A stretch of 64,000 bases of DNA, from assembly GCF_030848505.1 (NCBI RefSeq), contig NZ_JAVDDU010000005.1, positions 1 to 64,000 on the forward strand. The letters are read 5' to 3'. This DNA is from Marinimicrobium hydrolyticum. GTDB lineage: Bacteria; Pseudomonadota; Gammaproteobacteria; Pseudomonadales; Cellvibrionaceae. Numbering within the stretch: the stretch's first letter is position 1; every line of letters begins with the position of its first letter. Below the pieces are notes generated by a model. The model searched no databases. It saw nothing but the letters and a program-made list of their open reading frames with translations, and was not told the origin of the DNA. Below are positions 1 to 6,479 of this stretch, in pieces. Position numbers and translations under genes: made by a program.

Positions 1-63
1 GGACGGCTTACACTACGCTCGTTCCTCGCTACGTTACAATCGCCCCATGTGCGGGCGTTATAA
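1..63 (+). other. attC-like recombination site, left part outside the window
   Basis: The 3' half of an integron attC-type site. It ends in a GCGTTATAAG core (GTT at 57-59), preceded by GCCCCATGTGCGGGC; almost the same block, GCCCATGTGCGG, precedes the GTTAG core near 432. The first gene begins 12 bases after the core, as in gene cassettes. The matching left arm lies outside the window, so folding cannot be checked. Confidence 0.55.
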
Positions 64-74
64 GTGCTAAAGAT

Positions 75-356
75 ATGGCCATTGTTTTACTATTCTTCAT
101 TTTGAGCGTTATTTCAGATGGGATTCTCTTTTCAGCCATGGAGAAAAAAGAGCCGGAGTTGTATGAAAAACTTGGCAGCCCAGGTTTCCTTTCTTTGTCA
201 ATGAACCCGCTAGTTATCATAAAGTACTGGATTTTTATACTAAGTCCTAATCCGCTTCCAGAAGAGTGTGATCTAAATTCATTGCTATGGGTTAGTCGTA
301 TATGCGTTATCGGTTTTATTGGTTCAATTTTTTTGAGCTTATGGTGGCAAACGTAA
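75..356 (+). CDS. small membrane protein of a gene cassette, unknown function
   Basis: A 93-residue protein that I do not recognise. It has a hydrophobic N-terminal segment (about residues 2-16), a charged stretch with EKKEPELYEK (23-32), a second hydrophobic segment near 47-56 and a third near the C terminus (about 73-90), so it is probably an inner-membrane protein. The base composition is clearly AT-richer than the housekeeping genes of the window. The ATG lies a few bases after an attC-like core and the stop codon runs into the next attC-like palindrome, which is the typical tight packing of an integron cassette. No Shine-Dalgarno sequence is obvious, also common in cassettes. Confidence 0.6.
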   Translation: MAIVLLFFILSVISDGILFSAMEKKEPELYEKLGSPGFLSLSMNPLVIIKYWIFILSPNPLPEECDLNSLLWVSRICVIGFIGSIFLSLWWQT

Positions 357-438
357 TTATACCAATGCGTGCCAATACACCGCCGCAAGCGGGCGGCGGG
401 ACGCTCGTAAACTCGCGCCCATGTGCGGAACGTTAGGG
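354..438 (+). other. attC-like site between cassettes 1 and 2
   Basis: Imperfect palindromic region that starts at the stop codon of the 93-residue gene (TATACCAATGCG, similar to a left R'' box) and ends in AACGTTAGGGC (GTTAGGG at 432-438). It carries a CCGCC..GGCGG inner stem and the GCCCATGTGCGG block shared with the site at the left edge. Length (about 85 bases) and placement fit attC sites. The left box is degenerate, so the call rests on the 3' core, the internal symmetry and the repeat of this arrangement in neighbouring gaps. Confidence 0.55.
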
Positions 439-458
439 CTAGGACCAAGGGAGTATAA

Positions 459-800
459 ATGGAACTGAAGAACGTTAAATCAGAGGGCGAGCTATACTCT
501 GATAGCGTAAGGGCAGAGCTGGGTCTTGCTTCCTATCTTAGGGTCATAGTCTTTGCAGGATTTGCGTGGGCTTTGGTCGGAGCGGTTGTGGCCGCAATCG
601 CTTCTGAACCGGAGGTTACCAGCATCACTGAGCAAATTGCATTTTACGGAATCGTTATGGGCTTTGGAGCGGTGTGGGGCTTTGCGAGGCTTATAATCGC
701 GGGGTTGATTGGGTACCCTTTATATAAATTTTGGTGTTCTCGTATGCGAGGACAAAGGCTTCAAGGAAAGTTCGCGGTTGTTGTTCCGTTGGAGCCCTAA
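459..800 (+). CDS. small membrane protein of a gene cassette, unknown function
   Basis: A 113-residue protein with two clear hydrophobic segments (about residues 29-47 and 60-87) after a charged N terminus, and a basic C-terminal part with YPLYKFWCSRMRGQRLQGKF. Predicted inner-membrane protein; function not recognised, although its general make-up resembles the small membrane proteins common in marine integron cassettes. A good ribosome binding site (AAGGGAG, 446-452) precedes the ATG. The start lies 27 bases after the GTTAGGG core of the preceding attC-like site, and the stop codon (798-800) falls inside the left box of the next one. Confidence 0.7.
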   Translation: MELKNVKSEGELYSDSVRAELGLASYLRVIVFAGFAWALVGAVVAAIASEPEVTSITEQIAFYGIVMGFGAVWGFARLIIAGLIGYPLYKFWCSRMRGQRLQGKFAVVVPLEP

Positions 801-876
801 GAATCCAAGGAAGCGGGACATATTTTGCTTCGCTGCGCTCAAAACGCAAAATATCCCCTGCTTGGGGCGTTATACG
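796..876 (+). other. attC-like site between cassettes 2 and 3
   Basis: The best of the attC-like sites. Its left arm at 805-828 (CCAAGGAAGCGGGACATATT..GC) pairs with the right arm at 846-867 (GCAAAATATCCCCTGCTTGGGG), with a few unpaired bases, as attC hairpins have. A small GCTTCGCTGCGC loop lies between. The right core is GCGTTATACG (867-876); the left core CCCTAAGAATCC overlaps the stop codon of the upstream gene. Total length about 81 bases. Confidence 0.7.
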
Positions 877-1002
877 TCGAGGTAACTGATGAAGCAGATC
901 CAAACACGCTCACTAATAGAAGCTTTCGCGGGTCTACTAGGGCTCTGGTTGCTTGTCCGTCGTGTGCCAGACTACGCGTCGTTAGCCAAAGGAGTAAACC
1001 TG

Positions 1003-1779
1003 TTGAGGACAATACTTTCCATTGCTTTCTCCTTGTGTTCTCTCACTCTTAATGCAGAGGCGATATATATCGTCGATAAATCAAGGGACAGAGAAATACC
1101 TGTCGAGGTCTATGAGGCTAAGGATCAAAGAGGCTGCGCATCCCAATCCAAGTGTCCAGTAGCTATACTGAGCGCCGGATATGGCGTTCCACATACAAAT
1201 TACGAATTCGCCGTCAATTCCTACGTCGAGCAAGGATATCTGGTGCTTGCCGTGCGTCATGAGGTTCCCGGAGATCCACCGCTTTCAACATCTGGTGATC
1301 TTTATCAAACTAGGATAGAAAACTGGCAGAGAGGCGCGGAAACGCTCAGGGTAGTTGCCGCTAGTATGAAGAAGCGGCGTCCAGACTACGATTTCAATAG
1401 ACTCACTCTTATTGGCCACTCCAACGGCGGTGATATTTCAGCTTGGCTAGCGAATCAGGACGCTTCGATGGTCGATGCTCTAATCACTCTGGATCACCGG
1501 AGGGTCCCACTCCCGAAAGTTGAGGGAGTGCGCATCCTCTCTTTCCGGGCTGGCGATTTTCCCGCAGATGCGGGTGTTATTCCGACTAAAGATGAGCAGG
1601 CATCGCTCGGAATATGTATTGTGGAGTTGCCCGAAGCGCTGCACAACGACATGACGGACGAAGGGCCTGAATGGCTAAAAAGCCGAATTCACAAGACGCT
1701 TCAGAGGTTTTCATTAGGCAATCAGGAGTGCTCAGAATCAGGCGAGGCTAACAAAATAATCCCCGCGACAAGCGCGTAA
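1003..1779 (+). CDS. secreted alpha/beta-hydrolase, cassette-borne
   Basis: Alpha/beta-hydrolase fold protein, 258 residues from the chosen TTG start. The nucleophile serine lies in GHSNGG (nt about 1420-1437) and a candidate catalytic histidine in ALHNDM near the C terminus; substrate unknown (esterase, lipase or related). The TTG at 1003 has a strong ribosome binding site (AAAGGAG, 988-994) and gives a signal peptide MRTILSIAFSLCSLTLNAEA, so the enzyme is probably exported. The frame is also open back to an ATG at 889, which would add 38 residues with a hydrophobic segment (IEAFAGLLGLWLLV). That ATG sits 20 bases behind the attC-like core, so the upstream part may be the beginning of another cassette gene fused in frame, or the true start. 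Expression would come from an upstream cassette promoter. Confidence 0.75.
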   Translation: MRTILSIAFSLCSLTLNAEAIYIVDKSRDREIPVEVYEAKDQRGCASQSKCPVAILSAGYGVPHTNYEFAVNSYVEQGYLVLAVRHEVPGDPPLSTSGDLYQTRIENWQRGAETLRVVAASMKKRRPDYDFNRLTLIGHSNGGDISAWLANQDASMVDALITLDHRRVPLPKVEGVRILSFRAGDFPADAGVIPTKDEQASLGICIVELPEALHNDMTDEGPEWLKSRIHKTLQRFSLGNQECSESGEANKIIPATSA

Positions 1780-1917
1780 TTGCGGCAGTTAGAATGCGGG
1801 AAATCCCGGTAATAGTGGGCTTAATTTTCTTGTGAAAAATCGGTTGTGCCTAATCCAGGTGGAATTGCATTTCTGGTTGCCGTTTTAAACAAAATGTAGG
1901 GGTTGGATACAAAGCAA

Positions 1918-2682
1918 ATGAAGTTGGGAAAACGAACACAGCTTATCGGTTTACTGGTTGGGATTTCGCTGCCGGGTATTGTGCTTATCGCGTTACAGGT
2001 GCCGGGAATGGTTGAGCACCTGGACGCTGAGCTACCGCCACGGGCGGTGCTCATATTGTCGGCTGCCATTCAAAGCCTAGTGCTGGTTTCTGTGGTGGCC
2101 GCTTTGGGCGCCTGGGTGGCTCCCAAGGTTAATCTTCGCGCGCCGGCCATCGAAGGCCTGGTAGACGGGAATAGTCCTCGTTCAATACTGGCTTCGCAGG
2201 CTAAATTTGCCTTACCGGTCGGGTTTGGAGTTGGTGTGCTGATCGTGGCTGTCGAAGCTGTGGTTTTTCAGCCGTACTTGCCGGATACACTCTATCTGCT
2301 CGGCACCCCAATGACGCTCAACTACTTGCTGGCAGCCTTGACCTACGGAGGAATAGTAGAAGAGGTCTTGTTGCGGTGGGGTGTTATGAGTCTGGTGGCT
2401 TGGCTGATCTTTCTGGTTCTCGGTCGGCGCCATCTAGGTATCGCCCTTGTACTAGGTAACATACTGGCCGCAATACTTTTCGGCATCGGCCACTTGCCGG
2501 CCGTTGGTCTAATGGTGGGCGAGCTTACTACGCCCATCATTTTGCGGACGCTGATTCTTAACGCGGTGCCTGGCTTTATCTTTGGCATGTTCTTTCAGCG
2601 CCGTGGGCTGGAGGCCGCCATGTTTGCGCACATGGGCGTACACGTTGGAATGGCGGTCCCACGCGTTATCTTCGGCGCATAG
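1918..2682 (+). CDS. CPBP-family intramembrane metalloprotease
   Basis: Integral membrane protein of about 254 residues with around seven hydrophobic segments. It has the CPBP (CAAX protease and bacteriocin-processing, Abi) signature: EEVLLRWG at nt 2358-2381, a second motif FGIGHLPA around nt 2500, and an asparagine-containing helix followed by FAHMGVHV near the C terminus. The two glutamates, arginine and histidines are the expected metal ligands and catalytic residues of this glutamic/metalloprotease group. Known members process prenylated proteins, regulatory membrane proteins or bacteriocins; the target here is unknown. The start is uncertain: a TTG at 1903 directly follows AGGGG, while the ATG at 1918 is 15 bases behind it. 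It is followed by an attC-like hairpin at 2753-2814, so it may also be a cassette gene. Confidence 0.8.
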   Translation: MKLGKRTQLIGLLVGISLPGIVLIALQVPGMVEHLDAELPPRAVLILSAAIQSLVLVSVVAALGAWVAPKVNLRAPAIEGLVDGNSPRSILASQAKFALPVGFGVGVLIVAVEAVVFQPYLPDTLYLLGTPMTLNYLLAALTYGGIVEEVLLRWGVMSLVAWLIFLVLGRRHLGIALVLGNILAAILFGIGHLPAVGLMVGELTTPIILRTLILNAVPGFIFGMFFQRRGLEAAMFAHMGVHVGMAVPRVIFGA

Positions 2683-2752
2683 GCAAAGAGGCTGCAGGCA
2701 GCGCTGCTATTTTATGCCTACGAGAGGCTATGGGCGTCAGAGCGAGATTCAT

Positions 2753-2814
2753 TTCTAACGTGGCGCTGAAGCCGATGCGCCGTTCCGGCCTGGAGGCTTA
2801 GCCCTGCGTTTGCA
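2753..2814 (+). other. attC-like hairpin downstream of the CPBP gene
   Basis: A 62-base imperfect palindrome. The left end TTCTAACG pairs with the right end GCGTT (GTT at 2808-2810), and TGGCGCTGAAGCC pairs, with one extra base, with GGCTTAGCCCTG. The GAAGCC..GGCTTA inner boxes resemble those of well-known resistance-cassette attC sites. The right core (GTTTGCA) departs from the usual GTTRRRY, so it may be an inactive or old site. Confidence 0.45.
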
Positions 2815-2856
2815 GTTGGAAGAGATACCTATCATACAAATGAAAATCGGATTTTT

Positions 2857-3696
2857 ATGATTTTGATGAAAATTGTTGTTGCCTGCACCATGTTTGCATG
2901 CGCTGTAGCGTCGGCTTCCCCGTATCAAATGCCGAATACGGAGTCTAAAATATTAAGAGACGAGAATACGAAACGCGAGTACGAGTTGTACATAAAGCTA
3001 CCTGAAGATTACTCGGAAAACGTTAATTATCCAGTGATATATTTGACCGATTCATGGTACACGTTCCCTGTTGTAGCGGGTTCCGTTCAAGTCCCTATGG
3101 CGACAGAAAAAATGCAAGAAGTCATTGTCGTAGGGATTTCTAGAGACCTGAGTATGGACAGAGATACCTCCAGGCTTAGAGATTATACGCCGACAAGCCC
3201 TAAGAATTGGAAAAGGAAATCGGGGGAGGCTGATCTTTACCATCGTTTCATTTCTAACGACGTGTTCAATTATATAGACAGTACGTACAGCACGGATAAA
3301 AATCAAAGAACCTATGTGGGTGTTTCACTTGGAGGGTTGTGGGGCGCTTATGTACTTCTGACGTATCCTGATACGTTTGAGAATTACGTATTAGCTAGCC
3401 CTGCGTTATGGTTTGATGACGAGTATATTTTTCGCTTAGAGCAGGAGTATGCTAAAGCGAATAGTGATTTGAAAGCGAACGTATACTTGTCAGTGGGATC
3501 CTTGGAAGTGCTTAAGGGGGAGGGTTTTACTCTTGATATGGTAATCGATTCGCGTAGGCTGTATGAAGCGCTGAAAAGTCGCCAGTACGAAAATTTAACT
3601 ATAAAGAACGCGGTAGTGGATTCTGCAAATCATGAAACAGCATTTCCCGCATCATCTATTATGGGATTGTACTGGCTGTTCGGCAATGACAGTTAA
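2857..3696 (+). CDS. secreted esterase, putative esterase D / IroE-like family
   Basis: Alpha/beta-hydrolase of 279 residues, related to the 'putative esterase' family that includes esterase D, feruloyl esterases and the enterochelin esterase IroE. A signal peptide is evident (MKIVVACTMFACAVASA, from the second ATG at 2866). The nucleophile elbow is GVSLGG (nt about 3319-3336) and the histidine is in ANHETAFP near the C terminus. The substrate cannot be read from sequence; siderophore trilactone, S-formylglutathione-like or acyl ester substrates are possible. The gene is AT-rich relative to the rest of the window and lies directly after the cassette-like array, which suggests recent acquisition. 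No attC-like palindrome follows it clearly. Confidence 0.75.
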   Translation: MILMKIVVACTMFACAVASASPYQMPNTESKILRDENTKREYELYIKLPEDYSENVNYPVIYLTDSWYTFPVVAGSVQVPMATEKMQEVIVVGISRDLSMDRDTSRLRDYTPTSPKNWKRKSGEADLYHRFISNDVFNYIDSTYSTDKNQRTYVGVSLGGLWGAYVLLTYPDTFENYVLASPALWFDDEYIFRLEQEYAKANSDLKANVYLSVGSLEVLKGEGFTLDMVIDSRRLYEALKSRQYENLTIKNAVVDSANHETAFPASSIMGLYWLFGNDS

Positions 3697-3786
3697 GAAA
3701 CCGTTCAGCGTTAACGGGACGTGTTAAGCGTCGCACTAAGTAATTGGATTCGGGATAGATAACAGCAACTGCGTATCGGACAATGT

Positions 3787-4293
3787 ATGACTTTATTCAA
3801 ACGACAACTATTGATTTTGGTGGCAGCGCTGATTATGGCCAGCGTCACCTTCCAGGGTCCGTATTTGCTCAGCGACGACATAGTGATCGAAACCTCGACT
3901 TATCTGGACGCGGACGATCAGGAGCTGAACCGCGATATTCAGGCGTTGCTGGACAAGGGCTCACTGAGCGATGAAGAGCTTGATACCCTGACGCAGAAAC
4001 TGGCGCAGGTTTCGGGCAACGACGAAGGGATGTCGGAAGCAGAGCTTGAGCAGCAGGCGCGCGCGCAGTTGCGCACTTTCGGGCTCTGGCTTGTCGCGCC
4101 ACTGTGGCTGCTGTTTTTGGTGCTGTTGCCCCGCACTTGGGTGGAATACCTGGAGGTGTTGGCGTTGCCGGTGTTGTTCTACGCCGTCGGGGTGCTGATC
4201 GGCTTGGAGATTGCGGTTATTGTCGGCCTAGCGCTGTTGGTTGCCCTGCTGAAGCCCCGGCTCAAAAAGCGCCTGGGGCGGACGTATAGATGA
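3787..4293 (+). CDS. small membrane protein, unknown
   Basis: A 168-residue protein not matched to a named family. The first 20 residues form a hydrophobic, signal-anchor-like segment. Residues about 28-100 are acidic and predicted helical (repeated D, E, Q and L, as in SEAELEQQ), facing the periplasm if the N terminus is in. Three closely spaced hydrophobic segments follow, and the C terminus is very basic (KPRLKKRLGRTYR). It ends in an ATGA overlap with the VOC gene, so the two are translationally coupled and likely share a transcript. Confidence 0.65.
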   Translation: MTLFKRQLLILVAALIMASVTFQGPYLLSDDIVIETSTYLDADDQELNRDIQALLDKGSLSDEELDTLTQKLAQVSGNDEGMSEAELEQQARAQLRTFGLWLVAPLWLLFLVLLPRTWVEYLEVLALPVLFYAVGVLIGLEIAVIVGLALLVALLKPRLKKRLGRTYR

Positions 4294-4688
4294 TCCCTAA
4301 ATTAGCGAAATTACGAGTTGCAAGGCCAACTGATAACCTAAGTCAAATCACTGAGATGTATGTGAATGGGCTGGGCTTTAAGTTGCTAGGTAGATTCGAA
4401 GGGCACAATGGGTTTGACGGGTCAATTATCGGCCATGAGCAGCACAACTATCACCTTGAGTTCACCCACCACAAAGGCGCGAAGGTTGGCAAGGCACCGA
4501 CCAAAGACAATTTGCTAATTTTCTATATCGAGGATGAGAAAGTCTGGCGCGTCTCTTGCCAGAAAATGGTTGAGGCTGGGTTCACACCGGTGCAGTCCTA
4601 CAATGGTTACTGGGATGTGGCTGGTAGAACATTTGAGGACATCGATGGCTATCGTGTTGTATTGCAGAATCGAGAGTGGACGGCGTAG
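4290..4688 (+). CDS. VOC-family (glyoxalase / bleomycin resistance fold) protein
   Basis: Protein of 132 residues with two beta-alpha-beta-beta-beta modules of the vicinal oxygen chelate superfamily. The N-terminal half has LRVARPTDNLSQITEMY and GLGFKLLG; the C-terminal half ends with the typical FEDIDGYRVVLQN strand pattern. The histidines and glutamate in HNYHLEFTHH and the acidic residues in the last strands may bind metal. VOC proteins include glyoxalase I, dioxygenases and antibiotic-binding proteins, so substrate and reaction cannot be given. Its start codon overlaps the stop of the upstream membrane-protein gene. Confidence 0.8.
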   Translation: MIPKLAKLRVARPTDNLSQITEMYVNGLGFKLLGRFEGHNGFDGSIIGHEQHNYHLEFTHHKGAKVGKAPTKDNLLIFYIEDEKVWRVSCQKMVEAGFTPVQSYNGYWDVAGRTFEDIDGYRVVLQNREWTA

Positions 4689-4874
4689 CAACGCACGTTA
4701 GCAGGAAGCTGCCCTCACCAGTGGCGGCTGCTGCGACGTCGAGAGCGGCGGCTGGTTTAGCGCCGGGTCACAAAATAACCACAAGACACCCCTGGGAACC
4801 TGTGCTTCGGGGCCCGGGTTCGCGTATAGTACGGCCCCCGCATACCTCAACACGCTTATTTCCAGGATATTCTC

Positions 4875-6479
4875 TTGATTACGACCGCAAATATCACCAT
4901 GCAATTTGGTGCCAAGCCCCTATTTGAAAACATTTCCGTTAAATTTGGCGAAGGCAAACGCTATGGCCTGATTGGCGCCAACGGGTGTGGTAAATCCACC
5001 TTTATGAAGATTCTTGACGGTAGCCTGGCGCCTTCCGCCGGCAACGTCTCTCTCGGGCCCAATGTGCGTATCGGCAAGCTCTCCCAGGATCAGTTCGCGT
5101 TTGAGGCATATTCGGTTATCGACACCGTCATTATGGGCCACCGAGAGCTGTGGGAAGTCAAGCAGGAGCGCGATCGTATCTATAGCCTGCCGGAAATGAC
5201 CGAAGAAGATGGCATGAAGGTGGCTGAATTAGAGGTTAATTTCGCCGAAATGGACGGCTATAGCGCCGAAAGCCGAGCAGGCGACTTGCTGTTGGGCGCT
5301 GGCATACCGCAGGACTTGCTGTTCGGCCCCATGAGCGAAGTGGCACCCGGCTTGAAGTTGCGCGTGTTGCTGGTACAAGCCCTGTTTTCTGACCCGGATA
5401 TTCTGCTGCTGGACGAGCCCACCAACAACTTGGATATCAACACCATCCGCTGGCTGGAAGGCCTGCTCAACGAGCGCGAGAGCACCATGGTGATTATCTC
5501 TCACGATCGCCACTTCCTGAATGCCGTTTGTACCCATATGGCCGACATCGACTACGGCGAGCTGCGTGTATACCCCGGTAACTATGATGACTTCATGATT
5601 GCGTCGACTCAGGCCCGCGAGCGCCTGCACTCGGAAAATGCCAAGAAAAAAGCGGAAATCGCCGATCTTCAGCAATTCGTCAGCCGCTTTTCTGCAAACG
5701 CTTCCAAGGCCAAGCAGGCGACGTCGCGGGCAAAGCGCGTGGAGAAGATTAAGCTCGACGAAGTGAAGCCCACCAGCCGCATCAGCCCGTTTATTCGCTT
5801 CAAGCAGGACAAAAAGCTGCATCGCCAGGCACTGACCCTTGAAAAACTGAGCCACGGCTTTGGCGGCGAGGTGCTGTTCAAGGGCGGTAATTTGATCTTG
5901 GAGGCCGGCACGCGCTTGGCGATTATCGGTGAAAACGGTGTGGGCAAGACCACTCTACTGCGCTGCTTGATGAACGAGCTCCCAGCCAACGTTGGGAAAA
6001 TTCAGTGGGCGGAAAGCGCCACGCTCGGTTATTGCCCACAAGACAGCAGCGCTGACTTTGATTGTGAGCTGACCCTGTTCGAGTGGATGAGCCAGTGGCG
6101 TAAGCCCAATCATGACGATCAGATCGTACGTGCCACTTTGGGCCGGCTACTGTTCTCCGCAGACGACTTTAACAAAAAGGCGGCCGTCTGCTCCGGTGGC
6201 GAAAAAAACCGCCTGCTGTTCGGCAAGCTCATGATGCAGGACACCAATGTCTTGATCATGGACGAGCCAACCAACCACCTGGACATGGAATCCATTGAAG
6301 CCCTCAACCTCGCGCTCGAGCATTATGAGGGTACGCTGATTTTTGTCAGCCACGATCGAGAGTTCGTCTCATCGCTGGCTACCCGGGTGATTGAGATCAA
6401 GGACAGGCAGCTGATCGACTTCCAAGGTAACTACGAGGAATATCTGGCGAGCCAAGCCGCTGTCACCGAACCGGCGTGA
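4875..6479 (+). CDS. ybiT: ABC-F ATP-binding protein, YbiT type
   Basis: Soluble twin-ATPase of the ABC-F family (534 residues), which acts on the ribosome rather than as a transporter; YbiT-type members are translation factors of poorly defined role. The first nucleotide-binding domain has GANGCGKST (about residues 35-43) and [11 protein letters not shown]; the second has GENGVGKTT (about 352), [14 protein letters not shown] and MDEPTNHLD. The linker between them is Lys/Ala-rich ([15 protein letters not shown]), as is usual for ABC-F P-site tRNA-interaction motifs. The TTG start is chosen because the following residues align with the conserved N terminus of YbiT ([14 protein letters not shown]) and AGGAT stands 7 bases upstream. 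Complete, with no sign of truncation. Confidence 0.9.

Follow-up and report, generated by a model that had tools for sequence, protein, structure and literature searches.

The first bases of a contig of Marinimicrobium hydrolyticum carry a row of small genes separated by palindromes, and the question raised by this locus is whether they form an integron cassette array and, if so, whether its cassettes can still move. The window, i.e., the whole stretch of 64,000 nucleotides (nt) analyzed here, is G000:C26:1-64000 (G000 is the genome analyzed, G001 to G066 are relatives and C numbers are contigs). An earlier note, made from the letters of this DNA alone, had described an integron cassette array cut by the window edge and had taken it as a sign of a mobile accessory system. 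The array stands, supported by attC recombination sites, by the logic of the cassettes, by attC outside the window and by an intact integron integrase (IntI) in the same genome. It is cut as described, the cut being the contig end itself, since the left window edge is the contig edge and the assembly stops at base 1; the side on which the earlier note expected the integrase is thus out of view. The sites are decayed, and the array is therefore more a frozen array end than a sign of current mobility. With a probability of about 0.87, an old integron cassette array with decaying recombination sites ends here, bases 1 to ~3,700 being its distal, chromosome-side end.

Identification of attC sites

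Folding the bottom strands of the four palindromes, which the earlier note had proposed as a check, gave no significance by plain minimum free energy (MFE; z = -0.16, -0.21, -0.92 and -1.21), and therefore a profile and a covariance model were trained. The attC profile was derived from 34 loci with or beside intI genes of relatives, which yielded 139 filtered sites (124 after deduplication). For the covariance model 40 short attC of relatives were used, and its paired columns co-vary, with 136 cells changed on both sides versus 52 in shuffles. The following sites were considered in the window:

1..63, + strand: attC site 1, core G at 57, left part lost to the contig end; right half 14.6 bits, covariance model 19.8 bits
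357..438, + strand: attC site 2, decayed, with related copies; right half 18.0 bits, left half 9.1 bits
795..875, + strand: attC site 3, L stem retained, R'' AAC replaced by AAG; covariance model 32.6 bits
1746..1794, + strand: additional attC of 49 nt, R box kept, L stem lost, with related copies; 13.3 bits
2753..2814, + strand: possible attC, uncertain; left half 5.8 bits, right half 1.2 bits

The right-half profile scored the cores at 57, 432 and 869 with 14.6, 18.0 and 16.2 bits. Among the 118,973 positions of the background, which comprises both strands of the remaining window, only 1 scored at least 12 bits (9944, 17.0 bits), and it has no left half. For sites 2 and 3, the R'' left half scored best at 357 (9.1 bits) and 795 (10.3 bits), respectively. 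Over the window, the covariance model identified 795-875 with an E-value of 5.6e-6 and the truncated site 1-63 with an E-value of 0.012. With filters off, six covariance matches were found in bases 1-4300, including 1746-1794 (E 0.037) and 357-438 (10.7 bits, E 0.18). The three profile matches lie within 900 bp and all on the + strand, so that at least two attC share one cluster and one orientation. A scan of window positions 1-5000 against Rfam gave three chance matches and no attC family.

For three of the window sites, related copies exist, either elsewhere in this genome or in a relative. Site 357-438 is related to C25:201.5k (84% over 76 nt), to C23:132.8k (89% over 64 nt) and to an attC belonging to G021's intI array (90% over 61 nt), and site 795-875 to an attC of G021 (87% over 75 nt). 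Copies related to 1746-1794 were found at C25:201.9k (86% over 43 nt) and C30:144.3k (80% over 49 nt). Thus, of the four attC-like sites first reported, those ending near 63, 438 and 876 clearly match the attC profile, the fourth is weak at its core (2808), and the 49-nt attC at 1746-1794 had been overlooked. The string said to be common to the first two sites had to be corrected as well: the actual exact match is CCCATGTGCGG (11 nt), not GCCCATGTGCGG.

Cassette boundaries and gene content

By rule, the start of a cassette (R') is complementary to the R'' that closes the same cassette. Full agreement in the three variable bases is seen in 67 of 96 consecutive pairs of relatives, versus 15 of 96 in a control that compares R'' with the next core. 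In the window, start and end agree in these three bases in all four testable cassettes, two of them compared by script and two read by eye:

58..432, + strand: cassette 1, open reading frame (ORF) of 93 amino acids (aa) at 75-356, 0 Pfam families; GTTATAA versus R'' TTATACC at 357, 6/7
433..869, + strand: cassette 2, 113-aa ORF at 459-800, 0 Pfam families; GTTAGGG versus R'' CCCTAAG at 795, 6/7
870..981, + strand: 112-bp piece that separates attC site 3 from the hydrolase cassette and is missing from G021
982..1788, + strand: cassette 3, exported alpha/beta hydrolase; GTTAGCC versus R'' GGCTAAC at 1746, 7/7 by eye
1789..2808, + strand: cassette 4, CPBP/Rce1-like membrane protease; GTTAGAA at 1788 versus R'' TTCTAAC at 2753, 7/7 by eye
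2857..3696, + strand: esterase gene (Esterase PF00756, 76.8 bits), no recognisable attC after it
3787..4293, + strand: 168-aa gene, first taken as ordinary chromosome; 84% homolog in G020, there in unrelated surroundings

The ORFs are placed as the earlier note had described, except that homology to G021 moves the start of the hydrolase cassette from 869 to 981. In contig C18 of G021, a 73% homolog of the hydrolase directly follows an attC, and the counterparts of window positions 799-872 and 980-1730 adjoin each other; the 112 bp at 870-981 are therefore extra in the window. This piece has no clear attC of its own. The hydrolase ORF spans 889-1779 with TTG 1003 as its likely true start, and its match to Abhydrolase_1 (20.6 bits) is under the cut-off. 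Among 144 genomes of the family, G021 alone has a homolog besides the window's own gene. The CPBP/Rce1-like gene (1903-2682) reaches 29.6 bits for the Rce1-like family versus a cut-off of 22.4.

The esterase gene may be one more cassette, because it shows 35% identity to the gene of an esterase cassette at the right end of C30. The array appears to end before 3787, and the genes from there on would be ordinary chromosome. No support was obtained for a role of these genes in defence: PADLOC matched 0 of 10 proteins (six from the window and four from other clusters).

Decay of the recombination sites

A first attC scanner, which required AAC in R'', recovered none of the previously noted sites, and this pointed to decay. 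AAC and GTT at the boundaries are named as conserved attC bases in a passage of PMC2727003. In the window, the R'' AAC is substituted in sites 2 and 3, by ACC at 357-363 and by AAG at 795-801. It is retained in all 20 sites listed for the other attC clusters in this genome and in 205 of 206 sites of relatives counted at the same thresholds, the latter count being biased to AAC since the training sites were selected with AAC, which weakens the comparison. One AAC change still allows a site to pass the threshold, as both window sites do.

Predicted folds point in the same direction. The R pairing of site 2 is 0.01 versus 4.14 and 3.08 in two copies from the same genome, and its L'/L'' pairing is gone. 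Site 3 keeps the L stem and loses the R box (0.08). The minimum-energy fold of 1746-1794 retains the R box and lacks the L stem, which is formed by three related copies. In every complete attC of the window, either the R'' triplet or the stem is decayed, and two sites lost stem pairing. This decay may be taken as a slow loss of mobility. By the mechanism established for other integrons, attC would be recognised by the integrase in its folded bottom-strand form and cleaved within the R' box, so that a cassette can leave or enter the array; each cassette here is one gene plus an attC of ~49-82 nt. The R' cores (GTTA) persist at 57, 432, 869 and 1788 next to mutated R'' triplets or L stems, and most cassettes of the window would probably be hard to move and kept as plain genes.

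Besides the biased AAC count, several observations weigh against an array end with decaying sites. Taken alone, the covariance model is not significant for 357-438 and 1746-1794. The G021 relatives of sites 2 and 3 are also weak in R pairing (0.15 and 0.41), and weak predicted folding is therefore no proof of inactivity. The last site, 2753-2814, is poor in three respects: the score of its right half is reached at 64 background positions, 26 of 1166 background pairs form a fold comparable to its attC-like one, versus 24 of 40 real attC, and no relative was found for it.

Integron integrase and other attC clusters in the genome

One gene over the cut-off of the integron integrase family was identified, at C23:558818-559750 (393.5 bits); read from the chosen start, it encodes 347 aa without a stop. 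Between its start and the end of C23 there are 439 bp, and the gene sits beside ridA and spoT. Its closest named relatives in one scan belong to Pseudomaricurvus, Marinagarivorans, Microbulbifer, Sessilibacter and others (62-65%). Upstream of the intI start codon, at a distance of 14 bp, is a LexA-like box (CTGT-N8-ACAG), the motif being the one given in a section of PMC3108266. If active on the window array, the integrase would come from this gene, under LexA (SOS) control. On the 280-kb contig C26, no gene passes the integron-integrase cut-off.

As the earlier note had anticipated for a true integron, further attC were found outside the window. The covariance model gave 15 matches in this genome at E ≤10, in scans that covered the contigs other than C13-C22 and C24; array pieces may also lie on C13-C22 or C24. 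A closer scan of seven stretches gave 24 matches at E ≤3 in six clusters, none of which has an integrase beside it:

C23:130-133k
C25:1-1,940
C25:196-202k
C30:78-88k
C30:142-144k
C8:3.5k

The stretch holding intI itself gave no attC match at E ≤3.

Several further observations were made around these loci. The region C30:77241-77630 (L197:7242-7631) is an 81% copy (393 aligned columns) of the intI upstream region and is followed by the C30:78-88k cluster. Judged from its sequence, it may be an attI-like leader that lost its integrase, and it was seen at this place only. A tblastn search for IntI remnants (E 1e-2), which covered the earlier locus set without the larger stretches L197-L200, gave only the C23 gene itself and one 32% match in locus L163 of a relative. 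At C8:3492-3914 (L200), a solitary attC is directly followed by a group II intron (RF02005, 93.3 bits), after which no reverse-transcriptase ORF of at least 150 aa was seen. At C25:1972-3567 (L183), the last attC of the left-end array is directly followed by a DDE transposase gene (DUF772, DDE_Tnp_1_6). A repeat of ~160 bp with 14-nt inverted ends (CCGACACCTGTCCG) occurs at the right end of C23, where it adjoins intI, at the left end of C30 and near the right end of C6. In the window, the ABC-F gene resembles G001, a genome of the same genus, over 69 bp of its start region: positions 4819-4887 are 83% identical to C303:7854-7920 of that genome, a stretch ~60 bp away from the 3' terminus of intI.

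Tail of the C23 integron or orphan cluster

Both the integron and the cluster of attC sites lacking an integron integrase (CALIN) are already known, and the window array is a further member of this kind. Those of their features that can be tested here were found, and the features of a complete integron, an attI site and a Pc promoter among them, would lie beyond the contig end. That the palindromes are instead terminators or chance inverted repeats between ordinary genes is very improbable. The weak MFE z-scores and the missing Rfam match would fit such an origin, but the profile ranks, the related attC in true arrays and the matching cassette starts and ends do not. It was ruled out at cores 57, 432, 869 and 1788 and may still hold for 2753-2814.

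The two remaining explanations differ in the physical link alone. We lean slightly to an orphan cluster, i.e., a CALIN that arose from a rearranged older integron or from cassettes inserted in trans. Like a CALIN, the window has attC-bounded cassettes and no integrase in view. The six clusters without adjacent IntI show that such arrays exist in this genome, the window sites are more decayed in R'' than those of the other clusters, and near-complete relatives have scattered arrays with one or no IntI match. However, the side left of base 1 is out of view, so that the absence of an integrase next to the array cannot be read, and the ends of long arrays may decay likewise. In a part of PMC9024848, CALIN are proposed to be probably degraded integrons, and draft genomes are said to inflate CALIN numbers. 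The same source states that contigs bearing arrays often break, which would suit the other explanation: the array could be the tail of a complete integron that runs from intI on C23 through missing cassettes to C26. This can be entertained only tentatively. The position of the IntI start near the C23 end, from which cassettes would read outwards, is consistent with it, and so is the beginning of C26 inside an array read away from its edge. However, C25 (left end) and C30 (right end) also start with inward-read arrays, so that no more than one array out of those on C25, C26 and C30 could form the tail, and the GC skew beside intI (short stretch) is opposite in sign to that of the flank of the window array. 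No join between C23 and C26 was found by synteny in relatives (spoT, ABC-F, recG, Tex) or by shared contig ends, and no contig following C23 was identified.

The array end can also be compared with known chromosomal systems. It shares with sedentary chromosomal integrons the chromosomal setting, the unknown or accessory genes and an IntI with a LexA-like box in the same genome. In contrast to their one large array, several separate clusters are found here, the sites are decayed and IntI is on another contig. In Xanthomonas, intI likewise occupies one locus and cassette clusters lie elsewhere, and a passage of PMC12444791 reports CALIN away from intI in about half of the genomes. These are other bacteria, however, in which the neighbour of intI is ilvD and not, as here, ridA.

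attC arrays in relatives and their orientation

An IntI match at E 1e-60 was found in 35 of the 58 genomes searched, this genome included (G065 and G066 are outside these 58). All 12 relatives in one or two contigs that were scanned gave covariance matches at E ≤0.001, from 3 in G033 to 103 in G029. G033 and G036 have attC matches, yet no IntI match at E 1e-60. In G029, which has one IntI match, attC occur in at least seven places among the matches listed. In the near-complete relatives, attC arrays are thus scattered round the chromosome. In Pseudomaricurvus alcaniphilus (L074:522-2434), five near-identical attC follow each other at a constant spacing of 449 bp, as if one cassette were tandemly repeated.

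Array orientation was compared with the GC skew of the 20-kb flank for 20 arrays or single sites among the matches listed in five genomes (G029, G035, G032, G024 and G014), five of them beside intI; the sample omits the listed sites of G005, G036, G008, G041, G065 and G066 and two single sites of G014. Array direction agrees with the local skew in 19 of 20 cases, two of the 19 agreeing flanks having a skew of ~0.01 with halves opposite in sign. The window array agrees as well (0.043 over 59 kb). In this genome as a whole, agreement is 4 of 8, measured on short stretches, and its own result does not favour the wider pattern. For large chromosomal integrons, an orientation rule is already known, as stated in part of PMC11023631.

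Taken alone, the worn end of an array, in a genome known as a draft, makes a modest case. Its wider value lies in the related attC of the same genome, which reveal the lost features and make the effect of natural decay on cassette mobility testable copy against copy. A single integrase might serve an archipelago of arrays round the chromosome, with cassettes passing in trans and the arrays co-oriented so that attC bottom strands lie on the leading-strand template; disused arrays or ends, such as that of the window, would freeze by loss of R''/L pairing and their genes would stay. As a general account this is rather unlikely at present. If, however, one integrase with several distant arrays, nearly all of those sampled being co-oriented with the skew, proves true in a full survey, it would extend the orientation rule to arrays without an adjacent integrase.

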